Shown here: positions 56,630 through 61,373 of the stretch, piece by piece
Layout: every line of letters begins with the position of its first letter
Position numbering within the stretch: the stretch's first letter is position 1
NCBI GenBank assembly: GCA_016722945.1
Contig: JAEQMT010000010.1
Coordinates: 637,765 to 701,764 of the forward strand
Length of the DNA: 64,000 bases
Reading direction: 5' to 3'
From: Desulfofustis sp. PB-SRB1
GTDB lineage: Bacteria; Desulfobacterota; Desulfobulbia; Desulfobulbales; Desulfocapsaceae
Translations under genes and position numbers: made by a program
Notes under the pieces: model-generated
Database searches by the model: none
Told to the model about the DNA's origin: nothing
Seen by the model: only the letters and a program-made list of their open reading frames with translations

Positions 56630-56860
56630 CTAGTCCCCTCCCAATGGTCATCCCGTACTTACGCGAGATAGTTGGCACTTATCAATAAGCGCGTGTTGTG
56701 AGTGTGGCTGTGAAGAAATCTCAGCCAGCCAGTCGGTGCCGGTAATAGCCTGTTGTTAACTCCAGGCTATGCAATCGGTCAATAATATTTATGAGTCTAC
56801 GTCAAATCAAGAACATTTTTAGATGGCAGGGGCCGCCGAGTACCGCGATGCTTTGGGTTT

Positions 56861-56886
56861 GGGAGAGATTCCCCCGGCTACCCGAT
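56861..56886 (+). mobile_element. Group II intron 3'-end fragment (remnant 3)
   Basis: These 26 bases are identical to the 3' tail of intron remnant 2 (59062-59087), including the GGGAGAGATTCCCCC hairpin and CTACCCGAT. Upstream bases to about 56824 are not clearly intron. It ends 17 bp from the hicA stop codon and is on the strand opposite to hicA. Confidence 0.65.
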
Positions 56887-56902
56887 GTGGGCAATTAGTG
56901 AC

Positions 56903-57121
56903 TTACTCGAACTCAGAGCGGCTGACTCCAGATTGGCGGATTATAGACAACAAGGTTCCTGTCCGAATTTCTCTATGGTCTGGAACCGGAACGGTAATGG
57001 TTCTTCCCGGAAGCTGTTTTTGCATAACGATATGGCTTCCACGTTGGCGCGCTTTCAAGAATCCGTGTTTTTCGAGGATTCCACAGATTTCTTTTCCCGA
57101 CAAGACCTTCAGCTTAACCAA
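56903..57121 (-). CDS. hicA: HicA-family mRNA interferase toxin
   Basis: This 72-residue toxin has the dsRNA-binding-like HicA fold, with the catalytic histidine in RQRGSHIVMQK and KVLSGKEICGILEKHGF at the start. It would cut mRNA when freed from the antitoxin. The start is TTG at 57121, inside the last codons of hicB (8-bp overlap), which should keep toxin levels low relative to antitoxin. The antitoxin gene comes first, the reverse of the classical hicAB order. Confidence 0.88.
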   Translation of the reverse strand: MVKLKVLSGKEICGILEKHGFLKARQRGSHIVMQKQLPGRTITVPVPDHREIRTGTLLSIIRQSGVSRSEFE

Positions 57122-57335
57122 CTGCCACCTCTACTTGAGTAATATAGACCTCCTTGTGTAATCGTGCGCCGATTTCCTGAGCTGACGCGGTTTCAAAGAA
57201 GAGTTCTAAAGCCTCCCTTAGGTTGTCTCTTGCCTCAGCAATTGAATCTCCTTGGCTGGCTACATCTACTTCCGGGCACAAAGCGACATAGCCGTCACCT
57301 TCCTTTTCTATGATCGCGGTTAGCTGTCTGTTCAT
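57114..57335 (-). CDS. hicB: HicB-family antitoxin
   Basis: This 73-residue antitoxin shows the partial RNase H fold of HicB: LTAIIEKEGDGYVALCPEVDVASQGDS followed by the helix AEARDNLREALELFFETA. It lacks a separate DNA-binding domain, as many short HicB proteins do. ATG 57335 matches the family N-terminus; a longer frame to 57371 is less likely. A GTTGGGC heptamer lies 30 bp upstream of the start (57366-57372), of the type found at gene-cassette boundaries. Confidence 0.87.
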   Translation of the reverse strand: MNRQLTAIIEKEGDGYVALCPEVDVASQGDSIAEARDNLREALELFFETASAQEIGARLHKEVYITQVEVAVG

Positions 57336-57409
57336 CTGTTTTCTCTCTGGAAATCTTTCTTGATCGCCCAACGGTAAGTTTACCTGTCTGCTTCAGCGGG
57401 TCTGGGGAA

Positions 57410-57960
57410 ACATGTTGTATACGCACGGCACGGGCGTGAACTAATGGGGTTCAATTTACCAATAAGCGTTCCGATGTATATTGTTGAAGCATAACATAAA
57501 TTATTAGCCGATGGCAAGCGCGTCATCGCGAGATGGGGGACTGAAGGAGGCCGGAGCACAGGTAATCCAGGAGTTACATCACTATGTCCTTGGCTGGTGG
57601 GGATACTTTCGTCTGACGGAAGCCAAATCCTTCCTCAAGGGACTGAAAATCTAGATAATACGGAGATTACGGAGTATTGTCTGGAAACAATGGAAGAACC
57701 CGAAGACCAGGGTAGCTAACCTGGAAAAGCTTGGGATTGCTCATGAGGACGCCATGCTCCGCGGAAATGCCCGCAAGAAGTATTGGCGTATGAGTAAAAT
57801 CAAGTGGGTCGCTATTGCCATGCCACAAAGCTGCTTCACTGGGCGAGGATTATACCTGCCGGGATACTGATTTCCTGATCAGCCGAACCGCCTTGGTACG
57901 TGATCCGTATGCCGGGTGGTGTGGGAGGGCTCCTCAGTAATGAGGAGTCCTATCCCGATT
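57410..57960 (+). mobile_element. Group II intron remnant 1, internally deleted
   Basis: About 550 bp keep both ends of a bacterial group II intron but not its middle. The left part has the domain I-like GGCACGGGCGTGAACTAATGGGG and CGCGAGATGGGGGACTGAAGGAGGCCGG. The right part has the last 100 codons of the intron protein, then the 3' RNA domains (AACCGCC...GGTGGTGTGGGAGG...CTATCCCGATT). It lies between hicB and the RDD gene; its 3' end contains the stop codon of the RDD gene, which is on the opposite strand. Confidence 0.8.
57571..57870 (+). pseudogene. Group II intron reverse transcriptase/maturase, C-terminal fragment
   Basis: One continuous frame reads the maturase end: LHHYVLGWWGYFRLTEAKS, a TAG stop at 57652-57654 where the family has the W of the EWI/RRRLR motif, then RRLRSIVWKQWKNPKTRV, ARKKYWRMSKIKW and GRGLYLPGY. 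The reverse transcriptase domain is absent. It cannot make an active protein. No endonuclease domain follows. Confidence 0.85.
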
Positions 57961-58549
57961 CTGCCCATTTCTCGAACTTTCTTTGGATAACCACCGTGCC
58001 TGCAACATAATCATGCAAGGCGCGCTTTCTTTTGTCTATGAGAAGAACTAGGAATTCACTCCAGATCCATATCTGCGTACCCCAGTAAAAAGGAACATGC
58101 CATTCCGGCATATTAAGCTGCCTATACTCTGCAAACTCCATCCATGTCATCGAGGCGAATTGCTGGTCAGAGACCTGAAGCGTCAAAACTAAACTAGCAA
58201 TTGCTCCAGGTATTCCTAATGCCAACAAAACGGATTCTCTTAGGATAGCTTCTCTCCAATCGCATTTCTTGCCATTTTTTCTTTTTATAACAATTTTCAC
58301 CAGAAGTTTGCCCGGGGTTCCACCCCACCGCTTCACAGTGTAGACTGAATAGATGAAAAAGAAGACATAAGAAGGAATAATGGTATAAAAGACGCCTAAT
58401 CTGCTCAAGTTGTTAAAGTACTGCAGAAGAACCACCCACGGCAAAACTATAACGAAGTCTAACCAGAAAGCTCCGAATCGCCTCCAGAATCCGGCATATG
58501 GATAGTCTCCTGAGTCACTTACATTAATAGGTAAAATGTTATTATCCAT
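57950..58549 (-). CDS. RDD family membrane protein
   Basis: This 199-residue protein has the RDD pattern: YAGFWRRFGAFWLDFVIVLPW in the first helix, an Arg-Asp pair replaced in part (RFGAFWLDF), the second helix SYVFFFIYSVYTVKRWGGTPGKLL and a final KRKRALHDYVAGTVVI. RDD proteins are small polytopic membrane proteins, mostly of unknown function, some linked to sodium or compatible solute transport. Its stop codon lies inside the tail of intron remnant 1, so the original C-terminus may be slightly changed. Intron remnants flank it on both sides. Confidence 0.85.
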   Translation of the reverse strand: MDNNILPINVSDSGDYPYAGFWRRFGAFWLDFVIVLPWVVLLQYFNNLSRLGVFYTIIPSYVFFFIYSVYTVKRWGGTPGKLLVKIVIKRKNGKKCDWREAILRESVLLALGIPGAIASLVLTLQVSDQQFASMTWMEFAEYRQLNMPEWHVPFYWGTQIWIWSEFLVLLIDKRKRALHDYVAGTVVIQRKFEKWAESG

Positions 58550-58574
58550 GATTATCTTCGCAGAACGTGGACAT

Positions 58575-59089
58575 CTGCCGCGGCACTAGCCGTCGGTAGC
58601 ATGGCTTGGTGTACGCCCGGCATGGGCGTGATCTTATGGGGTGCAAGTCCCCTGTATGTAAACCCAGTTACTGTCGTGATGACAGGAACATAAATACTAG
58701 TCGAAAGCAAGGCCGATCCCGCGAGGGTTAAACACCATACCCGAAATCGACCAGTGGCTGCGCCGCAGGGTACGCATGTGCTACTGGAAACAGTGGCGTT
58801 ACTGCCGTACCAAGGTTCGCGAGCTGACCAAGCTCGGGACATTCCTGCGTACCGCTATCTCCGTCGGTTTGAGCCGCAAAGGTCCATGGAGATTATCCCG
58901 CACATTGGCCACCCAATCGGGTATGACCAATCAATGGCTCAGGGATCAAGGTTTGATTTGCCTTAAAGATCTATGGGTAAACATCCATTACCCGGCTACG
59001 GCTCGGTAACCTCTGGGAACCGCCTAGTGCGGACCCGCTTGCTAGGTGGTGTGGGGGCTGGGGGAGAGATTCCCCCGGCTACCCGATTC
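58575..59089 (+). mobile_element. Group II intron remnant 2, internally deleted
   Basis: About 515 bp hold the domain I-like GCCCGGCATGGGCGTGATC and GGGGTGCAAGTCCCC, a short middle, the last 90 codons of an intron protein, and the 3' RNA domains (GGAACCGCC...GCGGACCC...GGTGGTGTGGGGG...CTACCCGATT). Most of the reverse transcriptase is deleted. It lies between the start of the RDD gene and the end of the HEPN gene, with its 3' end 22 bp from that gene's stop. It is a different lineage from remnant 1. Confidence 0.8.
58737..59009 (+). pseudogene. Group II intron reverse transcriptase/maturase, C-terminal fragment
   Basis: The frame is open for 90 codons to TAA and reads IDQWLRRRVRMCYWKQWRY, CRTKVRELTKLG, SRKGPWRLSRTLATQSGM and NQWLRDQGLICLKDLWV, the maturase domain X and C-terminus of intron-encoded proteins. 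There is no start codon at a sensible place and no reverse transcriptase domain. Confidence 0.85.
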
Positions 59090-59110
59090 GATATTTGATC
59101 AAATTAGGAA

Positions 59111-60625
59111 TTACAAATTATCAATATAATCTGTGAACTTTATTTGCTCATCAACTGTCCAATTTAATCGAAATTGATCATAAAATAATAGCGTTTTTGA
59201 GACATCAGATTTATCAATGGGATACTCCAAAATAGTTAAAAGTACTCTTTCAAGCATATATTGCAAACTGCTATTTGCTTCTGATAGCATTTTAATATAA
59301 TCATTAGATATTATATCGCCGTGAATCAGTTTGTTTCTAATATCCGACAACCCTATAATACCATCCACTCTGAAAAGGGGCCATAAGTCTGAAACATTGA
59401 TATTATATTCGCTACAAAATTTTTCAAAAACAATTCGTAGTGGAATTCTATTTAATTCATCCAATTTTCCATATACATAAGACCTTTGCTCTCCAGAGTA
59501 ATTTTTCATTATCGTTGTCACTGATTCGTGCATTTCTTTTTTTCGCGACTTCCATTCTTCTTCATCAGCAATAACATATTCAAGATTATTTCTTTTTCGG
59601 AAATCAAGAATTAACGATTCTAAACTAGAAAACATAGATAAGAATGATTCTTCAATTGTTCTTTTTCGTCCAGGCACAAGATTGACTATTGCGTCACACA
59701 ATATTTCTGGGTTGGGGTATGAAAGAAGAGCAGGGAAGCATGTTTTTAGATAGTCTTGAAAGCATGATCTATCAATCAAGCTATGAGTGTGGTTCGATCC
59801 TTTTAAATCTTCAGGAAACGCACAATTAATTAGAAACTCACTTTTTCCAGAAGGGAAAGATATTTCACTACGGTAAAATTTAACGATATGATTATTAGTG
59901 AAAATTTCCCAACCCAGACAAGCAGTACGGGTTCTTGATCCTAAAGAGGCGACCATCAAAAAATTATCAACCAAAGACATTATTTCATTTTCGTATTTTG
60001 TATCATTAATTTGTAATGAATCAACTTCTGCGCACCCAACTAAAAAAGAAGACTGTTTGAGATCTCCATTTTTTTGAGTAGCTGTTTTAAAATGCTTGTC
60101 GAAAGTTACAATTAAATTCTCTGAAATTTCGAATTCAATTTGACCAACTCGATCATATTTAATATCACCGTGATAATGATATTGTGGCATCAAGATAGGT
60201 TCAAGAAGAGAATTTGGACTAATCCAAATATTCAAGAAACCTCTGTTTGATTCTATTTTATCTGCTAAATTTATAACCTGAACCACTTTAAGATTTTGCG
60301 GTTCCCCTTTCAATGTTGATTCAGAAGAATTAGGCCCCCAGTATCTTGTTGATTTACTAGAAAGATACACCTCTGGAGAAATAATTGTAACTTCTTTTTT
60401 AGAATTGAATCCGTCTAAAACTGCAGAAAATGAAGTTTTATTAGTTTTCGAGAGTATATCAAATTGGATTTTTGATGGACGAAACCAGAAATATGGTTTA
60501 TCCATTGTAGATTCAGGAAGATATATCTTGCAAGGAACCTCTTGGATCTCTTTTCCGAGGATATCAAGAGATGCTTGAACAAAGAAATCCTCTTTTCGTT
60601 CTGAAATTGATTCTGACTTTATCAT
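59111..60625 (-). CDS. HEPN-type protein resembling ApeA defence proteins
   Basis: This 504-residue protein is strikingly AT-rich compared with its surroundings, a sign of transfer. The C-terminal third is helical and holds RNKLIHGD (near residue 430), the RX4H motif of HEPN ribonucleases, after a family-like RTIEESFLSMFSSLESLILDFRK helix. The N-terminal ~300 residues are beta-rich and of the ApeA N-terminal domain type by overall pattern (my inference). ApeA proteins are anti-phage HEPN nucleases that abort infection. ATG 60625 is preferred to TTG 60640. It is a single-gene unit next to intron remnants and a toxin-antitoxin pair. Confidence 0.68.
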   Translation of the reverse strand: MIKSESISERKEDFFVQASLDILGKEIQEVPCKIYLPESTMDKPYFWFRPSKIQFDILSKTNKTSFSAVLDGFNSKKEVTIISPEVYLSSKSTRYWGPNSSESTLKGEPQNLKVVQVINLADKIESNRGFLNIWISPNSLLEPILMPQYHYHGDIKYDRVGQIEFEISENLIVTFDKHFKTATQKNGDLKQSSFLVGCAEVDSLQINDTKYENEIMSLVDNFLMVASLGSRTRTACLGWEIFTNNHIVKFYRSEISFPSGKSEFLINCAFPEDLKGSNHTHSLIDRSCFQDYLKTCFPALLSYPNPEILCDAIVNLVPGRKRTIEESFLSMFSSLESLILDFRKRNNLEYVIADEEEWKSRKKEMHESVTTIMKNYSGEQRSYVYGKLDELNRIPLRIVFEKFCSEYNINVSDLWPLFRVDGIIGLSDIRNKLIHGDIISNDYIKMLSEANSSLQYMLERVLLTILEYPIDKSDVSKTLLFYDQFRLNWTVDEQIKFTDYIDNL

Positions 60626-60671
60626 TGAAATTTTTTCCAAGCAAACTTTGTTATTAGGTTTTTATAATTCA

Positions 60672-60752
60672 GTCGAACCGTCACGGATGAGACGCTTCGG
60701 GAACCGCGCTCGGCGCGGTTTGCGAAGTCGCTTCTCCATCCGATTGTTCGGC
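60672..60752. other. Long imperfect palindrome, attC-like
   Basis: Nested arms pair across 81 bp: CGAAC/GTTCG (60674-60678 with 60746-60750), CGGATGAGA/TCTC-C-ATCCG (60684-60692 with 60733-60742, one unpaired C), CTTCG/CGAAG and AACCGCGC/GCGCGGTT around a TCG loop. The nested arms with an extrahelical base recall integron attC sites. The outer boxes keep AAC/GTT but not the full RYYYAAC/GTTRRRY. It overlaps the last codons of the gene at 60681. Confidence 0.45.
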
Positions 60753-61127
60753 TTGGTCCTTGATTGTTGTTACCGTTAGCTGGTAGGTGTTGATTCCGTC
60801 CTGCCATGTGACCTGATTATTCGCTGTCTTCACGTCTTTGACGTGTGGAGAGGACTCTTGAAACATCCGCTTCGCTTTGTACACGGTGATGGGCAAGTCG
60901 TATTCAGTTTTGACGGTGAGAACTGATGTTTCCGGATCAAGAAACGGCATGCCAATGGATTCAGCAGTGTAGCTGAGGGTGACTTCTCCATTCGGAAACG
61001 GGAATGACTCTGTCTTAAGCACCTTGTGCCAGTATCCACCACGGAGGTGTTGCAAGAACGCACCGAGAAGACACCCGATGGCGAACACAACCACGAATGA
61101 AACTACGATAATCAGTTTCTTTTTCAT
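60681..61127 (-). CDS. Small membrane-anchored protein of unknown function
   Basis: This 148-residue protein starts MKKKLIIVVSFVVVFAIGCLLGAF, a single N-terminal membrane segment or signal anchor. A soluble domain follows (TLSYTAESIGMPFLDPETSVLTV, then an alternating strand pattern) with an Ala/Thr/Ser-rich tail. No family was recognised. ATG 61127 has AAAGAG just upstream; a longer frame to 61208 lacks a site. A GTTGGGC heptamer (61135-61141 on the minus strand) lies 7 bp before the start, the same heptamer as upstream of hicB. Confidence 0.6.
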   Translation of the reverse strand: MKKKLIIVVSFVVVFAIGCLLGAFLQHLRGGYWHKVLKTESFPFPNGEVTLSYTAESIGMPFLDPETSVLTVKTEYDLPITVYKAKRMFQESSPHVKDVKTANNQVTWQDGINTYQLTVTTIKDQAEQSDGEATSQTAPSAVPEASHP

Positions 61128-61373
61128 CTCTTTAGCCCAACCAACTGGTAAAAAGAGCATTTTTGAGGGGTTTCCCTGGTTCTTGTACGTCTTTTTGCGA
61201 AATATCACAACTTATACGGATGACTGAATAACTACAATTTATTGAGAAATAGAAGTCAGAAGATAGTAATTACAGCATGTTAGATGCTACTGATTTTGGG
61301 GCTTATCCGATTGGCGCACACCCTATACGGTTCAGCAACCCCATCATTTCGGTAGGGTGTATGGTGGCTGGTA

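Follow-up and report, generated by a model that had tools for sequence, protein, structure and literature searches.

Why three decayed group II introns should end in succession just beyond the stops of minus-strand genes, each on the strand opposite to its gene, is the question raised by a short gene row in the window, the 64,000-nt stretch of DNA analysed here (G000:C1:637765-701764, from a 4.69-Mb assembly of 71 contigs). A CALIN is a cluster of attC sites, at least two, that lacks an integron integrase. The segment at 56.86-60.75 kb is very probably a small CALIN of minus-strand cassettes, in which attC sites were split by decayed IIC-attC introns belonging to two lineages. Its units are best read as a 175-aa gene, a HEPN-like gene, an RDD gene and a HicBA pair, with three of the four attC sites split, and it is the uninterrupted attC-like hairpin marking the start of the HEPN unit that makes CALIN the best reading of the region. 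The features are as follows.

56861-56886, plus strand: intron piece A, the last 26 nt (3' part of domain VI) of a group IIC intron of the C lineage; 26/26 nt identical to 59062-59087
56887-56893, plus strand: 3' exon of A, (T)GTGGGC, R'' side of a candidate attC site, from its position and the L025 3' exon TGGGC
56903-57121, minus strand: hicA toxin gene (cassette gene); Pfam HicA_toxin, 3e-17
57114-57371, minus strand: hicB-like antitoxin ORF adjoining hicA; weak HicB-like matches only, below cut-offs
57366-57418, plus strand: 5' exon of B, which ends in TTGT and spans R' (GCCCAAC) to L'' on the bottom strand of a candidate attC site; R' consensus and TTGT|T
57419-57959, plus strand: intron piece B, 541 nt, with both termini; from homology and a GIIM match (45 bits)
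57950-58549, minus strand: RDD-family membrane protein ORF; Pfam RDD, 1.3e-19
57960-57966, plus strand: 3' exon of B, TCTGCCC, R'' side of the split attC site, starting with T
58560-58610, plus strand: 5' exon of C, R' to L'' of an attC bottom strand, ending in TTGGT; 87% identical to C47:139011-139062
58611-59087, plus strand: intron piece C, 477 nt, with both termini; ends from full-length relatives
59088-59094, plus strand: 3' exon of C, TCGATAT, R'' side of the split attC site
59111-60640, minus strand: HEPN-like (possibly ApeA-like) cassette gene; Pfam HEPN_Apea, E = 0.008, below cut-off
60672-60752, plus strand (as bottom strand): uninterrupted attC-like site, with R' GTCGAAC, L' CGGATG, L'' CATCCG and R'' GTTCGGC
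60681-61208, minus strand: 175-aa ORF without family match, the presumed cassette gene owning the 60672-60752 site

The gene row and the intron ends

Gene labels had been given by the sequence-only reading, made earlier from the letters alone. Those of HicA and RDD are firm by Pfam profile matches (3e-17 and 1e-19), while that of HEPN is weak (E = 0.008), and the HEPN-like gene had no match in PADLOC. A search for this gene in related genomes, aimed at locating an intron-free array, returned one weak match only. The RDD ORF ends 10 nt within intron B, so that its last codons and stop are supplied by the antisense intron (57950-57966); when B was omitted in silico, the RDD frame became 38 codons longer across the joined site.

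The base-exact ends of the intron pieces come from comparison with four introns of nearly full length (1840-1850 nt; L080, L082, L084 and L090), three of which carry an open 508-aa protein. The same earlier reading had put the 3' ends at 56886, about 57960 and 59089, near or overlapping the stops of minus-strand genes and on the opposite strand. The first two positions stand, the second at 57959, and the third is now placed at 59087; the relation to antisense stops was reproduced, at +17 bp for A (hicA, 56903), -9 bp for B (RDD) and +24 bp for C (HEPN-like, 59111). A start of A at 56824 found no support, since only 56861-56886 is recognisable as intron and the segment 56824-56886 folds with z = +1.1 against shuffles. 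The 26 nt of A are also present at the intron ends of L024 and L025, and its 3' exon, compared with GTTRRRY in the bottom-strand reading, is one base out of register.

A separate hairpin was seen at 56752-56778 (ATAGCCTG-TTGTTAACTC-CAGGCTAT, loop TTGTT), upstream of a glycerol-transport substrate-binding gene; it is a candidate terminator or attC remnant.

attC sites and integron context

A strict attC grammar, composed of R and L boxes, spacers and an inner stem, gave a single match in the 64 kb, at 60672-60752, and none in 10 shuffled windows. This site immediately precedes the HEPN-like gene's start, contains a vacant TTGT|T and folds as DNA with z = -5.3. The grammar was not enriched in the intron loci of relatives (2 matches vs 3.7 expected), and for the named loci L160-L208 its count was 11 vs 2; being insensitive and unenriched in relatives, it makes the 60672-60752 match support and not proof.

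The split sites were inspected after joining their exons. The hairpin of the joined C site (z = -2.55) comprises an R box, an L box, the spacers and single-base bulges, and the site folds like its uninterrupted homologue at C47:139011-139062. At the joined B site, R' matches the consensus perfectly (GCCCAAC) and TTGT|T is exact, with a weak hairpin (z = -0.5) in which the R box pairs at 5/7 positions, and A retains the R'' side of its candidate attC site only. A score for R- and L-box pairing on joined sites was barely above control (p = 0.05) and was therefore not relied on. An early attC scanner using 8-nt L boxes was dropped, its matches being mostly unrelated palindromes.

An integrase search of the genome disclosed an intact integron integrase gene at C36:1702-2637 (L055; 365 bits vs a cut-off of 265) and intI remnants on other contigs, and none near the cassette cluster of the window. 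The contig C36 is 3.5 kb long and its first bases resemble part of an attC site; the cassette array of this integrase was probably lost in assembly. A second cassette cluster occurs at G000:C43:786000-803000 (L024), with attC-like sequence and two decayed IIC introns antisense to genes; an intI 3' remnant at C43:789974-790147 lies about 4 kb from the C43 intron copies.

Many near-identical tandem pairs of tyrosine recombinase genes were also encountered on C10, C25, C27, C46, C56, C58, C62, C63, C66, C69 and others. Located mostly on short contigs, they probably represent a multi-copy mobile element.

Insertion target

The target was derived from 57 intron 3' ends and 43 intron 5' ends in this genome and its relatives. 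A T opens the 3' exon in 53/57 ends, the next three bases are purines in 42, 38 and 43 of the 57, and a pyrimidine follows in 49, giving the consensus TRRRY. On the other side (n = 43) the last four bases of the 5' exon are T (40), T or G (41), G (39) and T (40), so that 5' exons end in TTGT or TGGT, usually behind a hairpin. The combined motif, TTGT|TRRRY, corresponds to the attC R'' box in the bottom strand and matches the published rule for IIC-attC introns, by which insertion takes place at TTGT|T in the bottom-strand R'' box (PMC7923331). Within the window, the motif is exactly TTGT|T at B and TTGGT|T at C, and the 5' exon of A is lost. The closest relatives of B, in its own genome and in G014, have T-purine 3' exons. 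Remoter B-type copies (G010 and G051) have 3' exons that do not start with T, and for this reason the rule is established for the nearest kin of B only.

Hairpins preceding the insertion point were observed for the set as a whole. The 5' exons fold with a mean z of -2.2 vs -0.4 for random segments, and also better than their own shuffles; z was below -2 in 22/43 of them vs 11/86 controls. Single-base bulges often occur at attC-typical positions, as in L082.

According to PMC7923331, terminators too serve class C introns as targets, an ability that IIC-attC introns have retained. The pieces could then be ordinary group IIC introns inserted at the terminator hairpins of convergent gene ends with no integron involved, and two loci of the set, L025 and L129, are indeed without obvious cassette context, the 5' exon of L129 being a long perfect hairpin. 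The exons speak for a different target: the 3' exons go on with RRRY in place of a T tract, and the 5' exon hairpins show the attC-like bulges. Moreover, insertion at terminators predicts a sense gene upstream, whereas the observed neighbour is antisense and at the 3' side, and both the attC-like site at 60672-60752 and the integrase genes and remnants of the genome would be left aside. We regard this explanation as distinctly unlikely. The attC-targeting class C intron inserted antisense to cassettes, which had been proposed from the sequence at the outset, agrees with the closest solved protein (6ar1), with TTGT|TRRRY and with the attC-like context.

Class, lineages and decay of the introns

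Rfam gave no group II match at gathering or permissive thresholds, and the class was accordingly assigned from proteins and homologues. The maturase tail of C is 92% identical in amino acid sequence to P0001, the protein of a full-length homologue, and among solved proteins P0001 is closest to the GsI-IIC RT (6ar1; 455 bits, with 144 bits for LtrA). For the maturase tail of B, matches are restricted to 6ar1 and 7uim. Classification of the tails, one of the checks suggested earlier, thus leads from C through P0001 to the GsI-IIC RT, and from B to 6ar1 and 7uim. Identity between the two tails is about 37% over 57 aa, and the introns also differ in their domain VI stems, which bears out the earlier claim of two lineages; judged by the closest solved proteins, both lineages are of class C. 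In addition, domain V of B and of C has the CGC triad, which is given for group IIC (PMC7923331), and the fold of domains V and VI at the 3' end exceeds that of shuffles (z = -4.8 for B and -5.3 for C).

Piece B consists of a 5' terminus of about 137 nt joined to a maturase tail (57559-57867), followed by domains V and VI (57883-57959), and C of a 117-nt 5' terminus joined to a maturase tail (58734-59006) with domains V and VI at 59018-59087. C corresponds to nt 1-117 fused to 1493-1843 of the 1843-nt full-length L080 intron, with about 1.4 kb deleted. Loss of the reverse transcriptase (RT) with retention of both RNA ends, as noted earlier for the two longer copies, was confirmed, and most of domains I-III proved to be gone as well; the GsI-IIC RT and the 7uim maturase, the solved proteins closest to P0001 and the B tail, have an RT domain, of which B and C retain nothing. 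The presence of both RNA ends does not, therefore, imply a working ribozyme: B and C are dead ribozymes, remnants and not active members of class C, and their termini can neither splice nor move.

Matches to C were found in 31/58 genomes, its own counted, and further genomes within the family and order contain full-length C relatives (1.84 kb, 508-aa protein). The related intron protein has its closest named carriers in Desulfobulbus, Desulfogranum and a Geobacteraceae MAG. C relatives in its own genome are located at C43:793765-794547, C43:796218, C43:606672 and C43:197499, and a B relative at C47:137979-138380. The C43:793765 copy has other deletion end points (165 and 1232), and its deletion is hence independent of that of C. 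Full-length introns of the B lineage were sought in G014 and G010 and none was found. A full-length C-type copy able to act in trans, for which a search had been recommended, is absent from the assembly, although with an assembly so fragmented (71 contigs) this absence is not final; other group II RTs encoded in the genome reach no more than about 26-40% identity along most of the protein, and one 133-aa fragment is 50% identical.

B and C might instead be functional ORF-less introns, spliced or moved by a protein supplied in trans, a type for which the related genome G012 offers examples of 712 and 705 nt with complete domains I-III. B and C, in contrast, miss most of these domains, the end points of their deletions differ, and the assembly holds no full-length class C protein of C type, which renders function very unlikely.

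Position relative to gene stops

An antisense ORF of at least 60 aa has its stop within 60 bp of 45/57 intron 3' ends vs 24% of random points in the same loci; the corresponding p of about 7e-18 is only nominal, as copies in related genomes share some history. In the genome of the window, 9/10 3' ends lie between -9 and +24 bp of an antisense stop, and at the tenth (C43:793765) the antisense ORF continues into the intron. That intron debris in intergenic DNA merely falls beyond stops by chance has a negligible probability: roughly one random point in four within these loci does have an antisense ORF stop close by, but the excess is as stated and the motif TTGT|T is base-exact, and on the evidence of the relatives the stop-adjacent positions are not a matter of chance.

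Proposed origin of the split sites

Returning to the CALIN with split attC sites, the arrangement is best accounted for by group IIC introns of two lineages that would have reverse-spliced into three attC sites in a row, each time on the bottom strand. The complex of intron RNA and protein would pair through IBS1 and IBS3 at TTGT|T, and the folded bottom strand of attC would be recognised in place of IBS2, the second exon-binding pairing; both steps are the published rule (PMC7923331), and the reverse-splicing route is taken from the same literature. Recognition of the hairpin together with insertion at TTGT|T would place each intron antisense to the cassettes, its 3' end at the stop of the preceding cassette gene. 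Independent internal deletions would later have removed the RT and most of the ribozyme. Since split attC sites should no longer be excisable by IntI, the HEPN, RDD and HicBA units would be fixed in the chromosome.

B is possibly a recombinant of two lineages, because 78% identity to C-type introns is seen in its 5' part and not in its 3' part. A wider scenario, in which IIC-attC introns shape arrays throughout the order, recombination between introns lodged in attC sites has joined and then frozen these units, and an ORF-less lineage kept in related genomes moves with borrowed proteins, appears rather unlikely at present.

Relation to known systems

Sonbol and Siam (2021, PMC7923331) describe IIC-attC introns both from cassette arrays and from CALINs. 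A soda-lake array has a truncated one, and in a toxin-antitoxin-rich CALIN the truncated introns are of group IIB, one of them beside hicA (PMC7923331). The introns of the window share with the described IIC-attC introns the class C affiliation, the TTGT|T target on the bottom strand and the antisense orientation to cassettes, and the case belongs to this already described kind. It differs in that three successive attC sites are occupied, by two lineages, that both longer copies keep both termini, and that comparable insertions exist across many related genomes; the less usual aspects are the three successive sites, the two lineages and the number of insertions in relatives.

Like a CALIN, the cluster is a short same-strand row of small genes including a toxin-antitoxin pair, with an attC-like site and no integrase nearby. 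Its sites amount to one intact attC-like site and two or three split ones. It departs from a CALIN in having only one of four sites uninterrupted, and for that reason standard attC finders would probably miss it. Intron 3' ends antisense to gene stops could serve as marks of degenerate integrons that such finders overlook. To the rule that a group of class C introns targets folded attC sites, the locus adds a base-exact case, with 57 comparable ends from its own and related genomes, and it makes an end state visible, namely cassettes that have dead introns within their recombination sites and are probably fixed in the chromosome.

Other group II introns in the genome and its relatives

Several near-identical copies of another, unrelated protein of a group II intron, with about 35% identity to P0001, were found at L002 and L004 and on C12 and C21, some of them with full-length ORFs. 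The ORF-less G012 examples are RT-less group IIC introns at L098 (reverse strand, 2134-2845, 712 nt) and L101 (1564-2268, 705 nt). They keep domains I-III, V and VI, are 77% identical end to end and occupy two different attC-like sites, and a third relative (69%) is present at G054:C172:29022-29688, in another family of the order. This group is a candidate ORF-less IIC-attC lineage moved in trans.
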